Shown here piece by piece: positions 35,183 through 50,630 of a stretch of 51,517 nucleotides of DNA. The stretch lies in contig CAIPMW010000067.1 in the NCBI GenBank assembly GCA_903866255.1, positions 1-51,517 of the forward strand. The letters run 5' to 3'. The position numbers and the translations under genes are program-made. Source of the stretch: an uncultured Chlorobiaceae bacterium (GTDB taxonomy: Bacteria; Bacteroidota; Chlorobiia; Chlorobiales; Chlorobiaceae). Within the stretch, counting starts at the first letter, position 1. Each line of letters opens with the position of its first letter. The notes below the pieces were generated by a model that worked only from the letters and a program-made list of their open reading frames with translations, did not search any database and was not told where the DNA came from.

Positions 35183-37075
35183 ATGAGTAATACCACAAAT
35201 AACGGCACACTGCCAGTTCAGGAGTTTGAATACAAGGCTGAGATGAAGCAGCTACTGGATCTTATTGTTCATTCACTCTACACTCACCCTGAAATTTATC
35301 TCAGGGAGCTGATTTCAAATGCCTCCGATGCGTTGAGTAAAGTGCGCTTCAATGCACTGACCGATCAGGACATTCTTGACAAGGAGGCTGAACTCGCAGT
35401 CAGGATAACCATTGATTCAAAGGAGATGACCTTTGCCATTGAAGACAGTGGTGTTGGCATGACGGAAGAGGAGTTGATTGCGAATCTTGGAACTGTTGCA
35501 AAGTCGGGGACACTCAGCTTTATGCAGTCGCTCAAAGAGCAGCAGCAACAGCTTGATGGAAACCTTATCGGCCAGTTTGGTGTCGGTTTCTACTCAGTGT
35601 TTATGGTTACCGAAGAGGTTACGGTAGAGACAAGAAGCGCCCGTACCGATTCCCAGGGATATCGCTGGCGCTCCGCAGGGCAGGGAACCTATACGATTGA
35701 AAAAATTGATAAAGCCTCTCGTGGCACCCGTATCTCCTTCAAACTGAAGGAGGAGCACAAAGAGTTTGCCGAGGAGTACCGCGTTGAACAGATTATCAAG
35801 AAATACTCCAACTTTGTTGACTTTCCCATCTATCTTGGCGAAAAACAGGTCAACAGTGTTACTGCGCTCTGGCAGCGTTCGAAAAACGAGCTGAAAGATG
35901 AAGAGGTCAATGAGTTTTACAAATTCATTGCCAACGACTATAACGATCCCCTTGACTATCTTCCGGTATCAGTTGAGGGGATGGTGAGCTTCAAGGCGCT
36001 CCTGTTTCTTCCCAAAGAGGCTCCGCCCGAAATGCTGTATCGGCAGGGAGAACTCGAAAATCATGGCCCGCAGCTCTACGTAAAAAAGGTTCTGATACAG
36101 AACGAGTGTCGCGATCTGCTCCCCGAGTACCTCCGCTTTATCGCCGGTGTGGTTGATACCGAGGATCTCTCGCTCAATGTTTCAAGAGAGGTGGTGCAGT
36201 CAAGCCCGGTGATGGCTAAAATTCGCCAGATTCTTACCGGCAAGATTCTTGGATGGTTTGAAACTCTTGCCAAGGAGCAGCCTGAAAAGTTCAAAACTTT
36301 TTATAAGGCGTTTGGTCCCATTATCAAGATTGGCCTCAATACGGACTTCACCAATCGCGACAAGCTTATTGAGCTGCTCCGTTTTGAGAGCACAAAAACT
36401 GCTGAAGGTGAATATGTGACACTCAGGGAGTACTTGGAAAGAATGGGGGAGGAGCAGAAAGAGATCTACTACCACTCTGGAACCAGTCGGGCGCAGCTTC
36501 TTGCCCATCCAAATCTTGAGTATTTCCAGAATATGAATATTGAGGTGCTGCTTTTGAGTGATCCGGTAGATGTCTTTGTTATTCCATCGATTCATGAGTT
36601 CGATAAAAAGCCGCTGAAATCCATTGAAAAACCGGACATCGATTTTTCAAAGCAGAAGCAGAAAAAAGAGGGTGCCGAGCCGCTTCCCGAGAATCTTCTC
36701 TCCCCGGTGTTACAGCTTTTCCGTGAAACACTTTCAGAGGAGATTGAGGATGTTATTGAGTCGCACCGGCTGGTCAATTCACCGGTGACGCTGGTGAGCG
36801 GAAAGGATGGGCTCGACAGCCAGATGGAGAAGATGATGAAGATGATGCAGGCGAATATGCCGGCGGCCAAAAGGATTCTGGAGGTCAATATCTCTCATCC
36901 GATTATCCGCAACCTTTCCGGGATGCTTATTGCCAATTCTGGTAACCCATTGATCAAAACGGTTATCAGGCAGCTTTATGAAGGTGCTCTCTTTCTTGAG
37001 GGAGGGCTTGATTCGACCACAGCATTTTTATCAAGAATGAACGAGTTGATTGAGGCAGCAACACTCTCCAGATGA
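35183..37075 (+). CDS. htpG: Molecular chaperone HtpG (Hsp90)
   Basis: Protein of 630 residues. The N-terminal GHKL ATPase shows '[18 protein letters not shown]', '[14 protein letters not shown]', 'IAKSG'-like '[10 protein letters not shown]' and '[12 protein letters not shown]'. The middle domain has '[15 protein letters not shown]', with the catalytic Arg loop, and the C-terminal dimerisation part holds a Met-rich patch '[12 protein letters not shown]'. Length and order match bacterial Hsp90. It is preceded by ~230 bases of AT-rich DNA with a small palindrome and followed after 32 bases by the ferritin/VIT gene. Confidence 0.97.
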
Positions 37076-37107
37076 GAGGAGATTCAATAATCTAAACCAA
37101 TGAATTC

Positions 37108-37986
37108 GTGAACAAGGGAAGGGGCTTCGATGCAAGGGAAATTGCGGTTTTTCAGCGGAATGAAATAACCGAGCATCATATTTATAAAAATCTTTCAGGC
37201 AAGGTAAGCGGCATTAAAAATAGACGCATACTTTCCCAGATTGCTGATGATGAGATGCGTCACTATAATGTCTGGAAAAACTATACACGGAAAGATATCA
37301 GCCCCGACCGCTTCAAGGTGTGGTTTTATATGTTGCTCACGACGCTGTTCGGTTTTTCCTTTGGCATAAGGTTGATGGAAAATGGTGAAAAAAAAGCTCA
37401 TGCGCTCTATACCCTTTTTCCAGGTTCTCTCAAGGAGGTAAACGGTATTGTTCGTGACGAAGAGGAGCATGAACAGGCTCTGTTGATGCTCCTCGACGAA
37501 GATCGACTCAGATACACTGGTTCAATAGTGCTAGGCCTGAGCGGAGTGATTGTTGAGTTGACGGGCGTGCTGGCGGGCCTTACCTGTCTTTTGCATAACA
37601 CAACAGAGGTTGCTCTTATCGCCTCCATTACAGGCATAGCCTTATCTTTCTCCATGGCGGCGTCCGGGTACCTTTCTACAAAAAATGAGCCTGAGGGGAA
37701 AAACCCGTTTCTTGTATCATTATTTACAGGAGTTGCCTCTATTTTTACTTTGCTGGCGCTGATAGCACCCTATCTTCTTCTTCAAGATCGCTCTGTCTGC
37801 CTTGGCATCTCTTTATTTATTATGGTCTGTATCACAGGCTTTTTCAACTACTACCTTTCTGTTACGAGTGCTCTGACTTACAAAAGCCGTTTTTTTGAGA
37901 TGGCGGGGCTGAGTTTCACTGTGGCCGCGCTGACTTTTCTGGCTGGTTATGCCATAAATTATCTCTTTCCTGGTGTTATACTGTAG
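37108..37986 (+). CDS. Ferritin-like / VIT membrane protein (MbfA-type iron exporter)
   Basis: Protein of 292 residues starting at GTG 37108. The N-terminal ~130 residues resemble a rubrerythrin-type diiron domain: E in 'QRNEITEHHIYKNLS', 'ADDEMRHYNVW' and 'VRDEEEHEQALL' give the repeated E-x-x-H ligands. The rest is a VIT1/CCC1-like membrane domain with five predicted spans ('GLSGVIVELTGVLAGLTCLL', 'VALIASITGIALSFSMAASGYLS'). Such fusions (MbfA, 'erythrin-VIT') export iron and protect against peroxide. The place behind htpG may point to stress response. Confidence 0.82.
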   Translation: MNKGRGFDAREIAVFQRNEITEHHIYKNLSGKVSGIKNRRILSQIADDEMRHYNVWKNYTRKDISPDRFKVWFYMLLTTLFGFSFGIRLMENGEKKAHALYTLFPGSLKEVNGIVRDEEEHEQALLMLLDEDRLRYTGSIVLGLSGVIVELTGVLAGLTCLLHNTTEVALIASITGIALSFSMAASGYLSTKNEPEGKNPFLVSLFTGVASIFTLLALIAPYLLLQDRSVCLGISLFIMVCITGFFNYYLSVTSALTYKSRFFEMAGLSFTVAALTFLAGYAINYLFPGVIL

Positions 37987-38340
37987 TTCATGTCAGGCAG
38001 TGGCTCCGATTGCATCGACAAAGCAATCGCTGGCGTGTTTCTTTTGAGAAACGTATCGTCCACAAAGAACGTGATTCCTCCCTTAATGCATTCAAAGATA
38101 AAGATTCCCTTTCTCCACAGAATCATATTGCCAGCGAGCACTTTTTGTTGGTCGGATGGCTTAATGATTCAAGTACTTCATAGTTGTGTCGGGGAAAACG
38201 TGGCAAATATGCCAATGAAGATAGAGACCGGAGCTGACAAGAATCATTCGCTCAAAGGGATTACTTAAAAAAAAATGTAAATTACCATTTCGTTGCAGAG
38301 ATAAGCTGCTTGATCACATTCACCTAACCAACTAACAGTT
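37987..38340. other. Intergenic region before the usp gene
   Basis: About 350 bases with no convincing gene. Short open frames on both strands (up to 92 codons, 37990-38268 plus) lack ribosome-binding sites and recognisable motifs. The last ~80 bases are AT-rich (including an A-run at 38267-38276) and probably contain the promoter of the stress-protein gene. No repeat shared with the rest of the window was noticed. Confidence 0.4.
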
Positions 38341-38817
38341 ATGATACATCTTATAAAAATACTTTGTCCCACTGATTACTCATCAACATCGGATAACGCT
38401 GTGCGCTATGCCGTTGATTTTTCACGAAAAGTTGGTGCTCATGTCCGGTTCCTGCATATCCCCACTCCCGGAGCTGCCCCGGAAAAATACGAATTTAGTT
38501 CGGCTGATGAGCTGGGCTCTACAGCTCGGACGGAAGAGCACGGTGATTTAGCTCCTCACAATTTTTCGGAGCTGCTTACTGCTGAGCAAAAAAGTGGTTT
38601 GAATGCTGATTTTCGTGTTATTAACGGAGATGCAGCCACAGTTATAGCGGAACAGGCACTATCCTGGGGAGCCGATTTGATCATCATGGGCTTTCATGGT
38701 CGAACTGGTCGGGAAAGACTTATGATGGGCAGTGTCTCTGAAGAGGTATTTCGCTGTTCTGATGTCCCTGTATTGCTGGTCAAGAAGCAGGCTGCCGATA
38801 AAATTTTTGTGGAGTGA
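38341..38817 (+). CDS. Universal stress protein (UspA family)
   Basis: Protein of 158 residues. It begins 'IKILCPTDYSSTSDNAVRYAVDFSRK' (the Usp N-terminal strand with Asp), and ends with 'WGADLIIMGFHGRTGRERLMMGSVSEEVFRCSDVPVLLVKK'. The G-x2-G-x9-G-S pattern in the last part is the ATP-binding signature of UspA/MJ0577 proteins. Cytosolic, probably dimeric, stress-related role not defined. It stands 46 bases before the fumarase gene and could share its transcript. Confidence 0.9.
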   Translation: MIHLIKILCPTDYSSTSDNAVRYAVDFSRKVGAHVRFLHIPTPGAAPEKYEFSSADELGSTARTEEHGDLAPHNFSELLTAEQKSGLNADFRVINGDAATVIAEQALSWGADLIIMGFHGRTGRERLMMGSVSEEVFRCSDVPVLLVKKQAADKIFVE

Positions 38818-38863
38818 CGGTATCCACCGTCGAAGTTTTATTTAATTTTACTTCCCACATTCT

Positions 38864-40396
38864 ATGGAAAATTTCAGGGATTCAATTTTTACGCTTATTA
38901 CGGAGACATCGGCTAATTTGCCAAGCGATGTTCGCTGTGCGCTTGCCTCCGCAATCGAGCGGGAAGATCCTCTCTCTCAGGCTGGTCTGGCCATGTCGAC
39001 CATCTCGGTGAATATCGATATGGCTGTGGACAATGTCTCTCCAGTCTGCCAGGATACCGGTATGCCAACCTTTTTTATCCATACTCCTCGTGGCGCTGAT
39101 CAGCTTTTCATGAAACAGGCGATTGAAGAGGCTGTTGTGGAGGCATCGAAAACCGGCAAGCTTCGTCCCAATGCGGTTGATGCCCTCAGTGGCAAAAACT
39201 CCGGCAACAATCTCGGCTGCCATTTTCCCGTTATCCATTTTGAGCCGTGGGAGAAGGATGAGATTGAGGTGAAGCTGATTCTGAAAGGGGGCGGATGCGA
39301 GAATAAAAACATTCAGTACTCACTGCCTGATGAAATCCTTGGTCTTGGGAGTGCTTCCCGCGATCTTGACGGTGTTCGCAAATGTCTGCTCCATGCGGTC
39401 TATCAGGCACAGGGGCAGGGATGCAGCCCCGGTGTTATCGGTGTCGGTATTGGTGGCGACCGAACCAGTGGTTTTGAGCTTGCCAAAAAGCAGCTTTTCC
39501 GCATGATCGATGACCGTAATCCTGACAGCGAACTTGATGCACTTGAACAGGAGATTCTGGAAAAATCCAACACCATGAATATTGGCCCGATGGGATTCGG
39601 TGGCAAAACCACCCTCTTCGGCTGTAAAATTGGCAAATCACACCGCGTACCGGCAAGTTTTTTTGTCTCTGTCGCCTATAACTGCTGGGCCTATCGTCGT
39701 CTTGGCGTGCTGCTCAATCCTGCAACAGGCTCAATCCAGCGCTGGTATTACCGGGATGCTGACGAAATCAAGCGAATGGCAAAGGGTGAAGGGATGCCAC
39801 TCACCGGCAAAGAGGTTGTCTTGCAGGCACCTGTGACCGAAGAGCAGGTGCGTGCCCTGAAGGTTGGAGATGTTGTGCTTGTCAATGGCACCATGCACAC
39901 CGGGCGCGATGCTTTCCACCACTACATTATGCACCACGACCTGCCGGAAGGGCTTGATACCACAGGCGGCGTTCTCTTCCATTGCGGGCCGGTTATCATG
40001 AAAAACGATGATGGCAGTTACCGTGTGACGGCGGCCGGGCCAACAACCTCAATTCGCGAGGAGCCTTTTCAGGCTGATGTTATCAAAAAACTTGGTCTGA
40101 GAGCGATTATTGGCAAGGGTGGCATGGGCCCCAAAACGTTAAAAGGCTTGGAGGAGCATGGAGCGGTCTATCTCAACGCCATCGGGGGCGCAGCCCAGTA
40201 CTATGCCCGTTGCATTGAAAAGGTGACCGGTGTCGATTTTCTTGAGGAGATGGGAGTTCCTGAAGCGATGTGGCACTTTGAGGTTAACTCATTTCCGGCA
40301 ATTGTCACCATGGATGCTCATGGCAACAGTCTGCACAGTCTGGTTGAAGAGGAGTCTTTCCGTACACTTGGTACTTATGCTGACGATACGCACTGA
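38864..40396 (+). CDS. fumA: Class I (iron-sulfur) fumarate hydratase
   Basis: Protein of 510 residues fusing the alpha and beta parts of class I fumarases. 'PVCQDTGMPTFFI' (cluster Cys), 'GKNSGNNLGCHFPV', 'LKGGGCENKNIQYSLP' and 'GCSPGVIGVGIGGDRTSGFELAKKQLF' belong to the alpha part. The beta part (from about 320) has 'VNGTMHTGRDAFHHY', 'CGPVI', 'AAGPTTSIREEP' and 'GKGGMGPKTL'. It interconverts malate and fumarate, in the reductive TCA direction if the host is a green sulfur bacterium. 51 bases upstream of pycB. Confidence 0.95.
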   Translation: MENFRDSIFTLITETSANLPSDVRCALASAIEREDPLSQAGLAMSTISVNIDMAVDNVSPVCQDTGMPTFFIHTPRGADQLFMKQAIEEAVVEASKTGKLRPNAVDALSGKNSGNNLGCHFPVIHFEPWEKDEIEVKLILKGGGCENKNIQYSLPDEILGLGSASRDLDGVRKCLLHAVYQAQGQGCSPGVIGVGIGGDRTSGFELAKKQLFRMIDDRNPDSELDALEQEILEKSNTMNIGPMGFGGKTTLFGCKIGKSHRVPASFFVSVAYNCWAYRRLGVLLNPATGSIQRWYYRDADEIKRMAKGEGMPLTGKEVVLQAPVTEEQVRALKVGDVVLVNGTMHTGRDAFHHYIMHHDLPEGLDTTGGVLFHCGPVIMKNDDGSYRVTAAGPTTSIREEPFQADVIKKLGLRAIIGKGGMGPKTLKGLEEHGAVYLNAIGGAAQYYARCIEKVTGVDFLEEMGVPEAMWHFEVNSFPAIVTMDAHGNSLHSLVEEESFRTLGTYADDTH

Positions 40397-40447
40397 GATT
40401 TGTTGGGCGGACTTCCAGGCACACTATAATTGAACAAGAGGAGACGG

Positions 40448-42385
40448 ATGAAAAAGATCAGATTTATGGATGTCTCGTTCCGGGACGGATTTCAGTCGTG
40501 TTTTGGCGCCAGGGTAAAGACAGAGGATTTTTTGCCAGCTCTGGAGGCCGCCGTTCATGCGGGTACCGACAACTTTGAAATAGGTGGCGGTGCCCGGTTT
40601 CAGAGTCTCTACTTCTATTGCGAAGAGGATGCCTTTACCATGATGGATACTGCCCGCAAAATTGTGGGGCCGGATATTAATCTTCAGACCCTCTCAAGGG
40701 GTGCCAATGTTGTTGGCCTTGTCTCGCAGTCACGTGATATTATTGACCTGCATGCCCGCCTCTTCAAGAAACATGGCATCACCACCATCAGGAACTTCGA
40801 TGCCTTGATGGATGTCCGTAACCTCTCCTATTCAGGGCAATGTATTCACGATGCAGGGCTCAAGCATCAGGTTGTTGTGGCTTTGATGGGTCTTCCCCCT
40901 GGCTTGCATGAGACCTATTGCCACTCACCGCAGTTTTATCTCGACAAGCTGAAAGAAATTCTTGATGCCGAAATTCCTTTCGACAGTGTCGCTTTTAAAG
41001 ATGCTTCAGGTACCACAACCCCTGCGGTTGTGCATGAGACCATCAAAGGGGCGAGAAAGATGCTGCCGGAGGGGACAATCATCCAGTTTCATACGCACGA
41101 TACTGCCGGAATGGGTGTTGCCTGCAACTTTGCAGCCATCACTGGCGGAGCAGATATCATTGACCTCTCCATGGCACCGGTCAGCGGAGGCACTGCAGAA
41201 GTGGACATTCTCACCATGTGGCAGAGGCTCAGGGGCACCGAATATACCCTTGATATCGATCAAGAGAAATACCTTGAGGTTGAGGCGCTCTTTATCGATC
41301 AGATGTACAAATACTATATGCCCCCCGAAGCAACAGCGGTCAATCCGGTAATCTCTTTTTCACCCATGCCCGGTGGCGCTCTCACTGCCAATACCCAGAT
41401 GATGCGCGACAACAATACGCTGCATCTCTTTCCTGCCGTGATCAACAACATGCGCGAAGTGGTGGTCAAGGGTGGTTTTGGTGCTTCGGTAACCCCTGTT
41501 TCCCAGTTCTATTTCCAGCAGGCCTTTGCCAATACCATTCAGGGCCATTGGAAAAAAATAACCGATGGCTATGGAAAAATGGTGCTGGGTTACTTTGGCA
41601 AAACTCCGGCTCGCCCCGACGAAGAGGTGGTGCGGCTTGCTTCAGAACAGCTTGGGCTTGCTCCAACCGTTGAGGATGTTCACGATATCAATGACCGTAA
41701 CCCCGAACTTGGGGTAGAGTATAACAAATCGCTGCTCCAGCAGGCCAATATTCCGCAGACCGACGAGAACATTTTTATTGCTGCAACCTGCGGCGCAAAA
41801 GGGATCGCCTTCCTGCAGGGTGATTGCACAACCGGTATCCGCTACAAGGCTGACATCGCCGTTGAGATCAAGGCGACGCCACGTGCAGAGGTGGTGGCAG
41901 CATACCACGAAGCGCACAAACACGACATCCATCAGAAAGAGGTGAACCACCGCCTTGAGGAGCTCTTTTCAAAGCTTCCAACAGCGACCCCGGCTACTGA
42001 GTCTTCAGCCTCATCATCAAAAGTTATTTCGATGGCCGGGAATTTCACCGTCTTTGTTGATGGCTCTCCCTATACCGTCTCATTCGCTGAGGGCTCAGCC
42101 ATTAATCCTCAGTCGCTTGCTCCAGTTTCATCAGCGGCCGATGATGCAGCTCTGGCTCTTCAGCCACACGCAGGTACACCCGTTACTGCCGTGATGCCTG
42201 GCAATGTATACTCAATTGCGGTCAAGGTGGGTGATGAGGTGAAGGAGGGCGAAGAGCTAGCCATCATCGAAGCCATGAAGATGGAAAACCCGGTCAAGGC
42301 CCCTTGTGCGGGAAGAATCCTCTCCATCACCGTAGCCAAGGGCGACACCGTAGGGATGGGTGAGATTATGATGACGATCGAGTAG
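40448..42385 (+). CDS. pycB: Pyruvate carboxylase B-type subunit (carboxyltransferase plus biotin domain)
   Basis: Protein of 645 residues from ATG 40448 behind GAGGAGACGG; a TTG at 40430 is less likely. The HMGL-like carboxyltransferase barrel has 'MDVSFRDGFQSCFGARVKTEDFLP', 'VAFKDASGTTTP' (Lys site) and 'IQFHTHDTAGMGVA' (metal His pair). After a Ser/Ala-rich linker near 520-540 comes a biotinyl domain with 'IIEAMKMENPVKAP', the Lys being biotinylated. It could be pyruvate carboxylase subunit B or oxaloacetate decarboxylase alpha. Next to fumarase it likely feeds oxaloacetate into the reductive TCA cycle. The biotin carboxylase subunit is not in the window. Confidence 0.88.
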   Translation: MKKIRFMDVSFRDGFQSCFGARVKTEDFLPALEAAVHAGTDNFEIGGGARFQSLYFYCEEDAFTMMDTARKIVGPDINLQTLSRGANVVGLVSQSRDIIDLHARLFKKHGITTIRNFDALMDVRNLSYSGQCIHDAGLKHQVVVALMGLPPGLHETYCHSPQFYLDKLKEILDAEIPFDSVAFKDASGTTTPAVVHETIKGARKMLPEGTIIQFHTHDTAGMGVACNFAAITGGADIIDLSMAPVSGGTAEVDILTMWQRLRGTEYTLDIDQEKYLEVEALFIDQMYKYYMPPEATAVNPVISFSPMPGGALTANTQMMRDNNTLHLFPAVINNMREVVVKGGFGASVTPVSQFYFQQAFANTIQGHWKKITDGYGKMVLGYFGKTPARPDEEVVRLASEQLGLAPTVEDVHDINDRNPELGVEYNKSLLQQANIPQTDENIFIAATCGAKGIAFLQGDCTTGIRYKADIAVEIKATPRAEVVAAYHEAHKHDIHQKEVNHRLEELFSKLPTATPATESSASSSKVISMAGNFTVFVDGSPYTVSFAEGSAINPQSLAPVSSAADDAALALQPHAGTPVTAVMPGNVYSIAVKVGDEVKEGEELAIIEAMKMENPVKAPCAGRILSITVAKGDTVGMGEIMMTIE

Positions 42386-42428: not shown

Positions 42429-42950
42429 ATGGCGGAAGGTTGCCTTTAGCTGTTTTATTCCATTTCTAAGTCTATAATAAAATGATAAACCAAAGACGCT
42501 CGATGATATAATGCAATTATGGAATATTATACTTCATCCAGAAGCGGGCTCGTTATAACACTTTTGTTTTAGAAATAGAATTAGAGTGCAGAATTTTTTT
42601 TTATACCCGGTGCATTCAGTTGCTTTCCTCTGAGGCGACTTGGGAAGCACTACAGCACCAATGCAATGCCCAAATGCCGGAGGCGTAGTCTCTTGGTAGA
42701 GTTGAGACAGTTTTTATCTGAAAAAATGCATGTCATTCCATTTAACCATGCAAATTATGGAATGGATGTTCATAATTTTGGCAGATGATTGCCAGAAAAC
42801 TTCACGACAAGCTTCTGGTCGCCCTTGCTTGTTTCCAGGCAAATGCCCTTCGTTCTCTGGGTTCTGGGCGGCTATCCTGATACAGTCTGCCTGCAGAAAC
42901 AAGGCACTTATTGAATCGCTATAGGACATATTACTTTTCTTGCAAAGAGC
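42429..42950. other. AT-rich gap at the start of the accessory island
   Basis: About 520 bases with no convincing gene. Composition drops to AT-rich with a T-run near 42596-42602. Short frames (64 codons plus at 42730; 178 codons minus at 42714-43250, opposite the pseudogene) show no family features. The missing N-terminal half of the regulator pseudogene that follows is not found here. Confidence 0.4.
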
Positions 42951-44007
42951 CGATTGATAGTGAATGGAAAAATCACCCGAGCCGCTGTTTTGCTGCTTGG
43001 CAAGCCGGAGGCAACGGTACAATTGCATCCGGTACAGCCGCAGATTAGCTGGGTACTGTACAGCAAAGAAAAAATTGAAAAGGATTACCAACATTTTTAT
43101 CCGCCATACATCATTGCTGTCGATGAGGTATTTGCAAAAATTCGTAATCTCAAATATCGCTATCTCAAAGAGGGCACTTTGTTCCCTGATGAAGTGGATC
43201 AGTACGACCAGCAGAATATCAAAGAAGCGTTGAGTAATTGCATCGCCCATAAGGATTATAACCTGGGTTCAAGGGTTTCTGTTGCTGAAAATGAAGATGG
43301 ATACATCTCGTTTACAAATCCAGGCTCCTTTCTTCCCGGGAGCATTCAGGAGGTTATCGATAGCGAAGAACCGCCTTCATTTTACAGAAACACACTGCTG
43401 GTTACCACTATGGAGTCCTTCAATATGATTGATTCCATTGGCAGCGGTATCAAGCGGATGTTCAGGGTGCAGCGAGAGAGGTTTTTTCCAATGCCCGATT
43501 ACGATTTTTCAGGGAACAAGGTAAAAGTAACACTTACTGGAAAAGTGCTGGATATGGACTATACGAGGGTTCTTGCCCGAAACCCCAGGTTAAGTTTAAA
43601 CCAGATTATCCTTCTCGAAAGTACAGAAACGGAAGCCTCTTTTGGAGGCAGAAATAAAGCTGCTGAGGGCAAAAGGTCTTATTGAAGGTAAAAAACCCAA
43701 TATTATTATTTCGGCAAAACTAGCACAAACCACAGGACAAAAAGCAGTTTACACCCGAAACAAAGCCTTTTCCAAGCAGCAGTATTTTGATTGGATTATG
43801 CAGGGTATTCAAGATCATGGTTCACTTTCCCGCAAAGACATCGAAGAGTTGGTTTGGACGAAACTGTCTGATTTATACGATGAAAAGCAGAAAAAAAAGA
43901 AAATCACCAATCTTATTTCTGAAATGAGTCGGAATGAAACGATAAAGAATGTGGGTTCGGATGCTGCTCCAAAATGGGTTTTAAAGGAGCAAGAGGGAAA
44001 TATTTAA
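42951..44007 (+). pseudogene. Broken AlbA_2/GHKL-type transcriptional regulator (COG2865)
   Basis: The C-terminal two thirds of a 'putative transcriptional regulator' with ATPase-like fold. 'NGKITRAAVLLLGK' begins it, then 'QNIKEALSNCIAHKDYN' (N-box of HATPase_c_4), 'YISFTNPGSF' (G-box) and 'GSGIKRMF'. Near 43617 the frame changes: 'LSLNQIILL' continues in the next frame as 'KVQKRKPLLEAEIKLLRAKGLIEGKKPNIIISAK', the winged-helix end, to the stop at 44005-44007. The AlbA_2 N-terminal domain (~200 residues) is absent. Both defects make it non-functional. Such genes are frequent in mobile and TA-rich regions. Confidence 0.75.
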
Positions 44008-44701: not shown

Positions 44702-46591
44702 ATGCTTAAAAAAATCCTGACAAGAATCACTGACCGTAACCTATGGCCCCGCAACTGGTGGTATCCTGGGCCCAAAAAGGATAACCGTCATGCTGATGTG
44801 GTCAAGATGCTGCATGAGAGCCATTCAAAAGCGATCAATAAAACCATGCTCTCGCTGCTTGGTGTCGGCTTGTACAGTCTGCTGGCGGTGGTTGGCTCAC
44901 CCGACAAGTCGCTGATTGCCACCAACAGCTCCATTCAAACACCACTGGTTGGCACCTCAATCTCTTTTCAGGGTTTTCTGATTGTCTCGCCCTTTCTTCT
45001 TGTCATCCTGACCGTCTATCTTCACATCCTGTATGGCAAATGGCTGCGGCTTGAAACAAAGCGAGAAGATCTGAACAAAGAGCCAGCGAACGCCGGTGAG
45101 CCAACCATTGAGAGTGTTCCAGCCATTTTCAGTTTTAGCGACCGTCTGCCCCGGTTTGTCACCACCTTTATCTTTTACTGGTTTGTGCCGTTGATCTTGT
45201 GCGTCATGGCCTCCAAGGCGTTCGCTCTCAAAGAGTTGATTCGCCCTATGTTTTATGTCGCCTCTGTCGTGACACTTGCTCTTCTTTTTTTGCGGATTAA
45301 TCGTTGTCCCGAAAGGAAACGGTTCTGGCGAAATGCTCCGCGCTGGATACTTCTCGCACTGCTTGTTGCGTTTATGGGTTATTTTCCCTCTGTTTCCGAC
45401 TCATTCCGCAGGCCACTGAATCTCCAGCGGGAAGATCTTCATGAAGCCTGGCTGCAAGGGCTGGATTTGACCGGCGCTGATATGAGTAATGCCAATCTGA
45501 AAGGGGCAAACCTCAGCGGTGCTATTCTTCAAAAAGCACATCTTGATGAAGCCAATTTGCTCGATGCTGATCTCAGAACGGCAAAACTTCAGGCTGCCTC
45601 CCTTAACAAAGCCAATCTTCAGAAAGCAAAGCTGACCTTCGCCGATTTTGAGGAAGCCGACCTCACGTTAGCGACTTTTACTGGTGCGACTCTCCAGAAT
45701 ACCAATTTTCAGAGTGCTGATATCAGGTATGCCAATTTCAGGGATTTCGTAAAAGAAGGAGAGTTTGATTCCCATCGGCTCAAATATGCCCAAAATTGGG
45801 AAAAGGCGTTTTACAGCAGTGAGTTGCTTGCAGCTCTCAAGCTGCCAAAAAGCCACAATGATGACCTGAACAAGGATTGGGACAAAACGTATGCTGAAGT
45901 GGAGCACTATCAATCGGAGAATAGTTTTCAAAACCTTCTCAAGGCAGGGTATCGAGTGGTTGAGCATCACGTCAAAAAGAATTTTCAAATGGTTAAGCGT
46001 TGGTTGAATATCGATGATAAGGGTACGGTTCCTGTCGTGGATGTTGGTGATGAGTATGGCGGCGGGATAGTTGCTTATCTCTTCCAGCCAGGCGACAAGG
46101 GTTACAATAAAAATAAACAGCATGGGCTGATTGCTGCCAAATCAGATATCCAGATCAATTACACCGATGCGTGGGGCTATGGGGATCAAAAGGATTCTTT
46201 TCGATGGAGCACGGGAGAAACGGGAAAAGAGGGTAACGCTGATTATGCCTGGCAGGAACTTCTCAACACCAGTACACGGTTAGGTGAAGGTGCGGCCAAT
46301 ACTGATAAAATATTGGCGAAGTATCCGTCGGAAAAGTATCCCTATACTGCGGCGGCAGTGGCGAGAGCATATCGTGGCGGAGGTTTTGATGACTGGTATT
46401 TGCCGAGCAAAAGGGAACTTAATAAGCTTTTTTACGTCAAAAGTGCTGTTGGCGGTTTTTCTGACGGCGGCTACTGGAGTTCTACGGAGAGCGGTGCGGT
46501 CGGCGCGTGGAACCAGTACTTCTACATTGGCAGCCAGGGCGGCAGCAGCAAGGACCACGCATGGCGAGTTCGGGCTGTGCGGGCTTTTTAA
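44702..46591 (+). CDS. DGR target 1: membrane protein with pentapeptide repeats and variable C-terminal domain
   Basis: Protein of 629 residues. About five hydrophobic spans lie in residues 38-225 (for example 'GFLIVSPFLLVILTVYLHIL', 'FVTTFIFYWFVPLILCVMA', 'WILLALLVAFMGYF'). Pentapeptide repeats (A(D/N)LxxA type: 'GADMSNANLKGANLSGAIL') run from about 258 to 345. A helical linker leads to a DUF1566/C-type-lectin-like domain from about 440 ('VGDEYGGGIVAYLF', 'HGLIAAKSD', 'FDDWYLPSKRELNKLF'), ending in VR1 (residues 581-629) with 'WRVRAVRAF' at the C terminus. Placement at the head of the retroelement makes it the main diversified product. The ligand is unknown. Confidence 0.88.
   Translation: MLKKILTRITDRNLWPRNWWYPGPKKDNRHADVVKMLHESHSKAINKTMLSLLGVGLYSLLAVVGSPDKSLIATNSSIQTPLVGTSISFQGFLIVSPFLLVILTVYLHILYGKWLRLETKREDLNKEPANAGEPTIESVPAIFSFSDRLPRFVTTFIFYWFVPLILCVMASKAFALKELIRPMFYVASVVTLALLFLRINRCPERKRFWRNAPRWILLALLVAFMGYFPSVSDSFRRPLNLQREDLHEAWLQGLDLTGADMSNANLKGANLSGAILQKAHLDEANLLDADLRTAKLQAASLNKANLQKAKLTFADFEEADLTLATFTGATLQNTNFQSADIRYANFRDFVKEGEFDSHRLKYAQNWEKAFYSSELLAALKLPKSHNDDLNKDWDKTYAEVEHYQSENSFQNLLKAGYRVVEHHVKKNFQMVKRWLNIDDKGTVPVVDVGDEYGGGIVAYLFQPGDKGYNKNKQHGLIAAKSDIQINYTDAWGYGDQKDSFRWSTGETGKEGNADYAWQELLNTSTRLGEGAANTDKILAKYPSEKYPYTAAAVARAYRGGGFDDWYLPSKRELNKLFYVKSAVGGFSDGGYWSSTESGAVGAWNQYFYIGSQGGSSKDHAWRVRAVRAF
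46442..46588 (+). repeat. DGR variable repeat VR1
   Basis: 147 bases at the 3' end of target gene 1, colinear with the template repeat at 47164-47310. By hand alignment, 24 of the template's 47 adenines are replaced (by G, T or C) and every other base is identical, except one G-to-C difference in the second-last codon. The unchanged 3' part, ending GCTGTGCGGG, would be the initiation-of-mutagenic-homing region. Most template AAC codons have become Gly, Ser, Tyr, Val, Asp or His. Confidence 0.95.
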
Positions 46592-46623: not shown

Positions 46624-46638
46624 GGGGGCAGCGCCCCC
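46624..46638. other. DGR hairpin downstream of VR1
   Basis: Stem GGGGGC/GCCCCC with loop AGC, beginning 35 bases after the end of VR1. It has no T-run behind it, so it is not a terminator. An equivalent hairpin with a different loop follows VR2 at the same distance. In the Bordetella phage DGR a hairpin or cruciform just behind the VR is needed for efficient target recognition; a like role is inferred. Confidence 0.65.
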
Positions 46639-46659: not shown

Positions 46660-47013
46660 ATGGCGCTTTACTATGATTTACCAGTGTATCGTGATGTCTA
46701 TCGTCTGATCCTGAAAATCGTTGAGTACACCAAAGATTTTCCACGTGAGTACAAATACTCGCTTGGCCAGGATCTAAAGCACGACAGTATTGTGCTGGTG
46801 CGCAGCATCTACAGGGCCAACAAAGCCAAAAGCAAGACCGAGTATCTTGAAGTATTTCTTGACGATTTTGAAATCCTTAAACTGGAGGTGCGCTTATGTG
46901 TTGACCTGAAAATTCTGCCCATGAAAAAGCAGGCCGAGATTACCGGTCTCATGGATGGAATTGGTAAACAAATTACCGGATGGCGTAATGCCGGGTCGGT
47001 GAAAGGTGCCTGA
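46660..47013 (+). CDS. avd: DGR accessory variability determinant (four-helix bundle)
   Basis: Protein of 117 residues, helical throughout: 'YYDLPVYRDVYRLILKIVEYTKDFPREYKYSLGQDLK' then 'SIVLVRSIYRANKAKSKTEYLEVFLDDFEILKLEVRLCVDL' and a last helix with 'IGKQITGW'. This matches Avd/four-helix-bundle proteins, basic pentamers that bind the reverse transcriptase and template RNA and are needed for mutagenic homing. Place between VR1 and the template repeat is the same as in the Bordetella phage element. A shortened second copy lies at 50652. Confidence 0.92.
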   Translation: MALYYDLPVYRDVYRLILKIVEYTKDFPREYKYSLGQDLKHDSIVLVRSIYRANKAKSKTEYLEVFLDDFEILKLEVRLCVDLKILPMKKQAEITGLMDGIGKQITGWRNAGSVKGA

Positions 47014-47163: not shown

Positions 47164-47310
47164 AGTGCTGTTGGCGGTTTTTCTGACAACAACTACTGGA
47201 GTTCTACGGAGAACGATGCAAACAACGCGTGGAACCAGAACTTCAACAATGGCAACCAGAACAACAACAACAAGAACAACACATGGCGAGTTCGGGCTGT
47301 GCGGGGTTTT
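47164..47310 (+). repeat. DGR template repeat (TR)
   Basis: 147 bases, non-varying master copy for the variable repeats. In the VR frame it reads as 49 codons with 15 AAC and one AAT, the usual adenine-rich design giving maximal diversity when A is mutated. It begins AGTGCTGTTGGCGG and ends GTGCGGGGTTTT. It lies 150 bases behind avd and 51 before the RT start. The stretch 47014-47163 between avd and TR holds no gene and is probably part of the template RNA, which is transcribed with flanks. Confidence 0.95.
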
Positions 47311-47361: not shown

Positions 47362-48621
47362 ATGACGGACAACACATCGTTGCAACTCGAATTGTTTCCC
47401 TTTTCAGCCCCAATTCCTCTTGTTGATCTTTTTGAGGCTTATGAAGGCTGTCGCCGACACAAGCGAAATACGGTCAATGCCATAGCTTTTGAACTCGACT
47501 ATGAACAAAATCTTGTTGAGCTTTGTTACGAAATTAATAATGGCAGTTACCAGCCGGGGAAGTCAATCGCCTTTATTGTTGAGCGACCAGTCAAGCGTGA
47601 AATATTTGCCGCTGACTTTCGTGACCGCGTTGTTCATCACCTCATCATCAATAAACTGAATGCCCTTTTTGAAAAAGAGTTTATTGGCGACAGTTACTCT
47701 TGCCGGAAAGGAAAAGGTACGCATAAAGGAATAAAGCGTCTGGATGGCTTTATCCGCCAGTGCTCACAAAACTATAGCCGCGACTGCTGGATTTTAAAGC
47801 TTGATATCAAAGGCTTTTTCATGAGCATCGATCGTCAGCGTCTTTACTATCGTCTGGAACTGTTCATCAATAATAATTATCACGCTCCTGATCGTCCTCT
47901 CCTGCTCGATCTTTGTCGAAAAGTGGTTTTTTACGATCCTGCAGCTAATTGTATTATCAAAGGGAAACGCTCAAACTGGAAGGGCTTGCCTGACGACAAA
48001 AGTCTTTTTCACTCTCGCCCGGGATGCGGCTTACCCATTGGCAACCTGACCAGCCAGGTGTTTGCCAACTTCTACCTTAACTCGTTTGATCATTTTATGA
48101 AACACACCCTTGGGTTGCGATACTATGGTCGTTACGTTGATGATGGAGTTGCGGTACATCAGAATCCTGTTTTTCTGAACTCATTGCTGCCAGTCATTCG
48201 TGCTTATCTGCAGCAGGAGCTTGGGTTGATACTGCATCCAAAAAAAATATTTCTTGAGCATTACACCCGGGGAGTCAAGTATCTTGGAGTTGTTATCAAG
48301 CCTCGCAGAATTTATGTCGCCAACCGTACAAAAGGCAATATGTACCGCGCTCTTTTAAAGTATAACCGGATAGCGCAAACGCATAAACCCTGGCATGCCG
48401 AGCGTACAGCCTTCCAGAGCAGTATCAACTCCTATCTCGGCTTGATGAAACATTATCATACATACTCCCTCCGTCGTTCCATGTTGCGCAAGCATCTTTC
48501 GCCCTGGTGGCTGAGGCTGGCCAAGGCAAATGCCCGGCTTGAAAAATTCACGCTCAAAATAAGGCCGCGCCGGTCAAAGAGAGGTCGATTCTCGAAAAAG
48601 CAACGGCTCAAGCGTGTATGA
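47362..48621 (+). CDS. DGR reverse transcriptase
   Basis: Protein of 419 residues from ATG 47362 (MTDNTSLQL). It copies the template RNA with errors at adenines. RT motifs: 'LKLDIKGFF' with the first catalytic Asp at 148, 'LPIGNLTSQVFANFYLN' (from 224, the [L/I]GxxxSQ motif typical of DGR enzymes) and 'YVDD' (258-261). It ends in an unusually basic tail 'RPRRSKRGRFSKKQRLKR'. No maturase or endonuclease domain, so not a group II intron RT. The frame is open upstream through the whole TR to 47077. Confidence 0.95.
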   Translation: MTDNTSLQLELFPFSAPIPLVDLFEAYEGCRRHKRNTVNAIAFELDYEQNLVELCYEINNGSYQPGKSIAFIVERPVKREIFAADFRDRVVHHLIINKLNALFEKEFIGDSYSCRKGKGTHKGIKRLDGFIRQCSQNYSRDCWILKLDIKGFFMSIDRQRLYYRLELFINNNYHAPDRPLLLDLCRKVVFYDPAANCIIKGKRSNWKGLPDDKSLFHSRPGCGLPIGNLTSQVFANFYLNSFDHFMKHTLGLRYYGRYVDDGVAVHQNPVFLNSLLPVIRAYLQQELGLILHPKKIFLEHYTRGVKYLGVVIKPRRIYVANRTKGNMYRALLKYNRIAQTHKPWHAERTAFQSSINSYLGLMKHYHTYSLRRSMLRKHLSPWWLRLAKANARLEKFTLKIRPRRSKRGRFSKKQRLKRV

Positions 48622-49220: not shown

Positions 49221-50543
49221 ATGCCCGATATTTTTATCAGCTACGCCCACGAGGATCAGGAGCGTATCAGGCCAATAGTTCAAGAGCTTGAAAAACGTTG
49301 GAGTGTTTTTTGGGACAAAAAGATTCCGCCAGGGAAAACATGGGAGGACTCCATTGGCAAAGCGTTGGAAGAGTCGCCCTGTGTTCTTGTTGTCTGGTCG
49401 CACTCTTCTGTAAAGTCAGATTGGGTTAAAGAGGAGGCGGACGTGGCCAAGAAAAGGGATACTTTTGTGCCTCTTTTTCTTGACAAGGTTGAACCGCCAA
49501 TGGGATTTCGGAGGATTCATGCAGCGGATCTCTCTGACTGGAAAAACAACAACGCTCATCAGGGATTTCAGTTACTCATTGGCGCGATTGAATCCAAAAT
49601 TTCTCCTGCAACACAGCCTGTTACAGACTCCCGACCGGTGTCAATGCCGGACACGGTTTCATTAGAGGGTGCCGGGCACACATCACCACAACGCAAGCCG
49701 GAGCGGCAACCGATTGGAAACGTAAGCTGGGTTCAAAAAAACCAGCTTGTAATAGTTGTTGCTGTAGTGATGCTGGTTATACTTGGCGTTGTCTGGAGTA
49801 TGAAACAGCCACAGTCAAAAGTTGAACCTAAACCTGCGCCCATCGCTGAGGTAGTAAAAGGAAATCCTGAGGCAGAAGCCCCTCGAAAAGCGGAGGCGGC
49901 ACGGTTGAAGGCAGAGCAAGATGCGGCCACTCGTCGTGAAGCTGAAGCCGCAAAGGCAAGGCAAGATGCAGATGCTCGTCGAAAAGCGGAGGATGCGCGT
50001 TTGGCTGCGGCGAAAGATGCTGTATCTCGTCGTGCAGCAGAAGCCGCAAAGGCAAAGCAGGACGCAGAAGCTCTTCGAAAAGAAGAAGCTCGGTTGAAGG
50101 CAGAGAAAGATGTGGCTCGTCGCGAGGCGAAAGCAAAGGAAAAGTTGGACGCAGATGCTCGCCGCGAAGCGGCAGTGGTAAAGTCTCGACAAGAAGCCGA
50201 AGCGAAAAAAACGCTTAAAATCGGTGACGAATATGGAGGTGGAAAAATTTTCTCGCTCGATCCTACAGGCCAGCACGGACTGATTGCGGCGAAAGCGGAT
50301 TTATCAGGTCACTCTGAGGGTAAATCTGAAGGGCGGTTTACATGGGAAGATGCGAAAGCAAAATGCGCAGCCCTCGGTGGTGGGTGGCGTTTGCCGAGTA
50401 AAAGTGAACTCAATGACCCTTATCACGCTAAAAGTGCTGTTGGCGGTTTTTCCGGCGGCGGCTACTGGAGTTCTACGGAGGACAGTGCGGATGGCGCCTG
50501 GGCGTCAGTACTTCGGCAGTGGCTACCAGGGCAACGACGGTAA
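49221..50543 (+). CDS. DGR target 2: TIR - transmembrane - coiled coil - DUF1566 receptor-like protein (frameshifted end)
   Basis: Protein of 440 residues. The TIR domain (1-130) starts 'PDIFISYAHEDQERIRPIV', has 'CVLVVWSHSSVKSDWVKEEADVA' with Glu71 at the position of the NADase catalytic Glu, then 'FVPLFLD'. A single span 'LVIVVAVVMLVILGVVW' lies at about 175-193 with basic residues before it (N-terminus inside). Residues ~210-330 are an Ala/Lys/Glu/Arg coiled coil, TolA-like. From 332 comes a DUF1566-like domain ('KIGDEYGGGKIF', 'QHGLIAAKAD', 'GGGWRLPSKSEL') ending in VR2. An extra base near 50502-50505 shifts the frame; without it the protein would run to 50583 and end in VRAVRAF like target 1. 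Confidence 0.9.
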   Translation: MPDIFISYAHEDQERIRPIVQELEKRWSVFWDKKIPPGKTWEDSIGKALEESPCVLVVWSHSSVKSDWVKEEADVAKKRDTFVPLFLDKVEPPMGFRRIHAADLSDWKNNNAHQGFQLLIGAIESKISPATQPVTDSRPVSMPDTVSLEGAGHTSPQRKPERQPIGNVSWVQKNQLVIVVAVVMLVILGVVWSMKQPQSKVEPKPAPIAEVVKGNPEAEAPRKAEAARLKAEQDAATRREAEAAKARQDADARRKAEDARLAAAKDAVSRRAAEAAKAKQDAEALRKEEARLKAEKDVARREAKAKEKLDADARREAAVVKSRQEAEAKKTLKIGDEYGGGKIFSLDPTGQHGLIAAKADLSGHSEGKSEGRFTWEDAKAKCAALGGGWRLPSKSELNDPYHAKSAVGGFSGGGYWSSTEDSADGAWASVLRQWLPGQRR

Positions 50544-50580
50544 GAGTTTCGGGGGGTGTGTTCGGGCGGTGCGGGCTTTT
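50433..50580 (+). repeat. DGR variable repeat VR2, diverged and frameshifted
   Basis: 148 bases at the end of the TIR gene aligning with the template over its full length, with one inserted base at about 50502-50505 (TGGGCGTCAG against TGGAACCAG). Many template adenines differ, but so do about ten other bases (for example TCT/TCC, GCG/GCC, TGGCGA/GGGTGT near the 3' end). The 3' end GTGCGGGCTTTTTAA matches VR1. It is an old or poorly served target rather than a freshly diversified one. Confidence 0.88.
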
Positions 50581-50615
50581 TAACCATTTATCTATTCAAC
50601 AATTAAGGGGGTACC

Positions 50616-50630
50616 GGGGGCAAAGCCCCC
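50616..50630. other. DGR hairpin downstream of VR2
   Basis: Stem GGGGGC/GCCCCC with loop AAA, 35 bases behind VR2, matching the VR1 hairpin in stem and position but with a different loop. The flanking ~90 bases are nearly the same as those behind VR1, so both descend from one duplicated segment. Confidence 0.65.

Follow-up and report, generated by a model that had tools for sequence, protein, structure and literature searches.

A one-base length change in a variable repeat puts the TIR receptor gene of a Chlorobiaceae DGR out of frame, probably through slippage during homing

The DGR of Bordetella phage BPP-1 (mtd, avd, brt) has the order Avd-TR-RT and adenine-directed changes from template repeat (TR) to VR, and its VR lies at the end of the target gene with a hairpin just downstream (PMC3240598). 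The locus analysed here shares the gene order, the adenine-directed changes and the place of the VR, has a candidate hairpin downstream of each VR, and differs from the phage-borne element in being bacterial, in having several targets that include a TIR protein, and in a VR whose length breaks the reading frame. Length changes in DGR VRs have so far been described as multiples of three: three-base indels in the AAC repeats of VRs were, as relayed by a later paper, ascribed to template slippage (Wu et al. 2018, cited in PMC12875486), and slippage on the template by this class of RT has been proposed to account for base choice as well as for three-base indels (PMC12875486). The changes reported here likewise fall at A-rich template and suggest slippage, but as far as that second-hand description goes the AAC-repeat indels keep the frame, whereas the +1, +2 and -1 changes found here destroy it. 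Chlorobium phaeobacteroides DSM 266, probably of the same bacterial group, likewise has one DGR with two VRs, in whose description we met no mention of a VR frame break (PMC3521204). Finally, in Thiohalocapsa PB-PSB1 and other multicellular bacteria a DGR-diversified sensor is joined to, or lies near, a TIR effector (PMC10907252), as here; the targets in those bacteria combine TIR with STAND, CHAT or VMAP, whereas the present one is a single protein made of TIR, a membrane-like stretch, a stalk and Lcl_C. A literature search that did not extend to several key DGR papers, and so speaks only weakly for novelty, turned up no VR whose frame is broken by one or two bases. What appears new here is the binding of frame breaks to VRs, their clustering in two close relatives and their location at template A runs. 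Should such slips be real, DGRs would incur a measurable cost through broken receptors; they would also be able to switch off targets of their own and, in principle, to bring them back, a link between these elements and phase variation.

The window (the whole stretch of 51,517 nucleotides analysed) is contig 67 of a 117-contig draft genome, and the DGR sits at its end in the order target 1 with VR1, avd, TR, RT, a HigBA-like toxin-antitoxin pair, and target 2 with VR2 (Table 1). With Avd, TR, RT and two targets the element is apparently complete. Its RT is 94-95% identical to the RTs of three other TR/VR loci of the genus, and RT relatives accompanied by TR/VR pairs were recovered across phyla. 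In centroid folds a 6-bp GC stem with a 3-base loop follows both VRs and is absent after the TR, the total fold of these stretches not exceeding that of shuffled controls. Target 2 begins with a TIR domain (Pfam TIR_2, 86.9 bits, cut-off 28), which is followed by one hydrophobic, membrane-like stretch and a charged, coiled-coil-like stalk, both read from the sequence. The same genome holds a second, distant DGR (L050, G000:C9) with an RT of 36% identity and no gap in its TR/VR pair.

Table 1. Positions of the DGR features in the window (G006 is a relative from the same genus)
Feature	Coordinates	Strand	Basis and remarks
Target 1: membrane protein, pentapeptide repeats and C-terminal Lcl_C, in frame	44702..46591	+	ORF; PF00805, PF13599, PF07603 (35.9 bits)
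VR1, 147 bp	46442..46588	+	own TR: 24 A and 1 non-A mismatch (3' G to C)
Hairpin GGGGGC-AGC-GCCCCC 3' of VR1, candidate target-recognition element	46624..46638	+	centroid fold; whole stretch no stronger than shuffles (z 0.55)
avd, DGR accessory protein	46660..47013	+	Pfam bAvd 65.6 bits (cut-off 40); NCBIfam DivGenRetAVD 64.3 bits, below cut-off 80
TR, template repeat, 147 bp, 47 adenines	47164..47310	+	repeat comparison
DGR reverse transcriptase, open, YVDD motif	47362..48621	+	Pfam RVT_1 68.3 bits
Target 2: TIR, hydrophobic stretch, stalk, truncated Lcl_C	49221..50543	+	out of frame from about 50505
VR2	50433..50580	+	148 bp; G006-type TR fits: 24 A and 2 non-A mismatches
Extra-base site	50500..50505	+	after CT, GGGCGT versus GGAAA in G006-type template; exact base not placeable
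Normal frame end (VRAVRAF), now out of frame	50544..50583	+	ORF translations, orthologue comparison
Hairpin GGGGGC-AAA-GCCCCC 3' of VR2, same position as after VR1	50616..50630	+	centroid fold; whole stretch no stronger than shuffles (z 0.92)

Comparison of the repeats bears out the claim of the first-pass annotation that VR2 is one base longer than TR and VR1. Positions 50497-50508 read TGGGCGTCAG, with TGGAACCAG as the TR counterpart; because VR2 belongs to another TR type (see below), the identity of the added base is not readable from the window's TR. The insertion shifts the frame in the way that had been described, and the TIR-Lcl_C protein stops with VLRQWLPGQRR at 50543 instead of with VRAVRAF at 50583, the alternative frame yielding QYFGSGYQGNDGKSFGGCVRAVRAF up to the latter stop. 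The orthologous TIR gene is present in six relatives in the genus (G018, G019, G006, G028, G031 and G023); the first five are in frame and end VRAVRAF, in agreement with the suggestion that the unshifted protein would end like target 1, and the sixth, G023, is out of frame through a different indel in the same VR. This comparison of relatives, of the kind that had been proposed as a check, found the shifted form unfixed and the TIR domain undecayed, with 1 difference in 560 bp of the TIR gene part against both G023 and G006.

The consequence for the protein can be read from the Pfam Lcl_C profile (cut-off 34.9 bits), which the in-frame orthologues match over 117/117 positions at 42-57 bits. 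The match of the window protein ends at position 94 of 117 with 20.6 bits, under the cut-off and with the C-terminal end missing, and that of the G023 orthologue reaches position 87 and scores 23.6 bits. With 48 of the 52 VRs of the genus in frame (see below), the shift goes beyond chance or an imprecise annotation. The alignment of an in-frame orthologue with the solved structure 8q4e extends through its last residue, so the part lost in the window protein belongs to the Lcl_C fold; a structure prediction for Lcl_C gave a pLDDT of 47, too low for use. The frame break would therefore leave a TIR protein whose sensing domain lacks its variable end and which has presumably lost its function. Two of the in-frame TIR-Lcl_C targets, L054 (G018) and L055 (G019), stand in genomes that have no close RT; G018 has no TR and RT stretch where avd is followed by the TIR gene, so that orphan targets remain.

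Which template produced VR2 is decided by the positions at which adenine is not involved. Against the window's own TR, VR2 shows 29 A and 12 non-A mismatches, which rules out that it is a copy of this template, and against the G006 TR only the two non-A mismatches given in Table 1 remain: a near-3' G to C common to all VRs, and a T to G that also occurs in a VR of G014. The A-directed differences by which a DGR is recognised are thus seen between VR1 and its own TR and between VR2 and the G006-type TR, and are not seen between VR2 and its own TR. The earlier description had set VR2 against the present TR; the length difference that it noted stands, and the view of VR2 as a diverged copy of that TR does not. 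As the 12 non-A mismatches mean that the present TR has not rewritten VR2, the repeat is probably a homing product of another TR type, which would predate either the arrival of the present TR or an exchange of the TIR gene. A second TR of the fitting type was sought in the window's own genome and not found, a scan of IMG/VR for the conserved 3' flank returned no match, and the GGG signature of VR2 occurs elsewhere only in one VR of G014. The window TR differs from those of G006, G023 and G028 at several non-A sites, with the start of the TIR gene almost identical to theirs, and judging from these sequences templates or targets seem to have been swapped between lineages.

To place the shift in a wider frame, 52 VRs and 8 TRs of the genus were scored as in frame by the distance between YWSST and VRAVR, one A-rich G019 VR flagged as a TR being counted by hand as a VR. 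The frame is kept in 8/8 TRs and in 48 of the 52 VRs, and the four broken ones comprise VR2 of the window together with every VR of the main DGR in G023, whose three VRs measure 149, 146 and 148 bp against a TR of 147 bp. The chance that all three G023 VRs would fall among the four broken is 1.8e-4, and no other frameshift was seen in the compared genes of the 12 kb G023 DGR stretch. That each of the three VRs in this one genome has acquired an out-of-frame indel independently ties the shift to the VRs and argues against random error. Relative to the best-fitting TR, the indels read AAA to GCGT in the window and AAA to AAGGG, AA to C, and AAATAA to GTAGGGG in G023, with sizes of +1, +2 and -1 across the four VRs. 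All four lie at template A runs, and 3/4 touch AAA runs, which make up 8/84 sites (p about 0.003). Non-A template positions are nearly unchanged in the broken VRs, which marks them as young homing products rather than decayed copies. Over the 298 bp directly upstream of the VR the window and G023 differ at 1 base, and in the VR core at 20/92 aligned bases plus three gap bases, so that at least one of the two VRs has recently been overwritten; this replacement between nearly identical flanks points to active mutagenic homing, of which the restriction of strong differences and distinct indels to the VR implicates the copying step.

These data support a model, to which we assign a probability of roughly 0.6, where the RT slipped while copying the TR and homing itself delivered the out-of-frame VR2. 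A round of homing would have used a TR of the type now in G006, and the RT, misinserting in A runs, would have lost register in or beside the template AAA run (GGAAACAG) and placed six bases for five; the shifted cDNA would then have replaced VR2 and removed the last, variable sensing part of the receptor, and a later round could restore the frame. AAA runs are present in 67/149 TR/VR pairs, nearly all of them without a frameshift. A lineage-specific RT mutation is unsupported as the cause: G006 has an RT one residue away from that of G023 and nearly the same TR but keeps all of its three VRs in frame, and G023 is therefore explained by neither enzyme nor template alone.

Outside the genus, 1/353 TR/VR pairs is out of frame in a survey that found pairs through the TR and left out orphan VRs. 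This pair (L414, 4515-4591) lies on a viral contig whose DGR is of a different family and has two target genes. The VR of one target is in frame; that of the other lacks 2 bases where the template is A-rich and is out of frame, and its core is unchanged at non-A positions. About a dozen pairs show in-frame VR length changes of at least 3 bases, many of them in AAC repeats, which matches the literature. Apparent frame-breaking gaps in L077, L078 and L111 were rejected as repeat artefacts or as lying outside the VR core.

Slippage has to be weighed against the possibility that the consensus of mixed VR2 alleles, or a miscall in a G run, gave rise to an extra base absent from every real cell. We regard such an artefact as rather unlikely, albeit with a real claim to attention: the genomes are drafts from uncultured cells, the window's among them, the frame breaks fall exactly where alleles differ, and all three insertions can also be written as a G run that is one or two G too long, which is a classical mistake of certain sequencing methods. 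In addition, a second frameshift of the window, a 2-base deletion at 43617, lies outside any VR. It breaks a gene (42730-44007) that is a single 585-aa ORF in G023 and no DGR target, and both bases are kept in four relatives (G023, G014, G028 and G006). A generally indel-prone assembly was nonetheless discarded, since this is the one such event and no isolated frameshift appeared across 35183-42385 of the window against close relatives. The G023 indels, one of which is a deletion (AA to C), are confined to VRs and lie amid densely mutated sites, where a short-read graph would probably have no shared words to misjoin, and the remaining 48 VRs of the genus are clean, although most of them likewise come from draft assemblies. 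Allele mixing would also be improbable in G023 if, as we infer, it is a single-cell genome of a stratified-lake data set whose single-cell genomes were assembled with SPAdes and whose metagenomes were assembled with Megahit (PMC8121793): CAJEXW010000016.1 comes from isolate RF-1857-SP43-464-G6_S20, a plate-and-well type name, and has a SPAdes-style contig name, its record being labelled MAG. A single cell could, moreover, make visible young VRs on which selection has not yet acted and which stay hidden in the consensus of a population. The sequencing error that the first-pass annotation had offered as the plain alternative thus keeps its footing in the G runs and loses likelihood through the VR-confined indels of G023.

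The 43617 frameshift in a neighbouring non-target gene, together with the lack of a match between VR2 and the present TR, could also be taken as signs that selection no longer acts on the TIR gene, or on the DGR as a whole, and that frameshifts accumulate as in any pseudogene. Such ordinary decay appears very unlikely to us, because the TIR, stalk and upstream Lcl_C parts are open and nearly identical to those of relatives, VR2 is clean at the non-A sites of the G006-type template, VR1, Avd and RT are all intact, and the indels of G023 occur in VRs only.

If slippage during homing did produce the shift, repair by a new round of homing is plausible, as RT and Avd are open, the TR appears intact, a candidate target hairpin follows VR2, and laboratory DGRs are able to repair reporters that have been truncated or deleted (PMC3240598, PMC12875486). 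The persistence of a VR2 that the present TR has not rewritten qualifies the idea of a quick repair. Of the reversible off state suggested earlier, the part that concerns the machinery for re-homing is upheld, since that machinery looks intact, and the part that relies on the present template is not supported, VR2 fitting another TR. We see no evidence for a regulated or programmed switch. A bolder extension of the slippage model, which we consider a decidedly long shot, would make frame-breaking homing recurrent and the template A runs a stochastic on/off element, through which a cell silences receptors (three at once in G023) and regains a fresh one in the next round. Least probable of all, in our estimate, is that selection favours frame-breaking homing because it turns a costly TIR receptor off reversibly, in the manner of phase variation through slippage at simple repeats. 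The alternation of on and off alleles among close relatives, the joint loss of three targets in one genome (G023), the AAA runs of the template, one of which is an AAA codon in the TRs of G006, G023 and G028, and the restoration of damaged reporters in the model systems cited above would fit such a contingency switch; broken VRs are rare elsewhere, however, at 1/353, the VRs of this lineage are for the most part on, restoration has not been seen, and VR2 retains another TR type and hence was not re-homed by the present one.

The reading frames beyond the VRs show further variation within the genus. On the minus strand of L053 (G023), at 1852 and 5824, the +2 and -1 shifts give the same frame; it meets no stop at the VR end or in the hairpin and finishes in a shared tail (LSIQQLRGYRGQ...DYGALL). 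On the plus strand of L059 at 5003, a VR gene of G031 is without the usual stop codon and reads on as NYLSIQQLRGYRGQRPQ.
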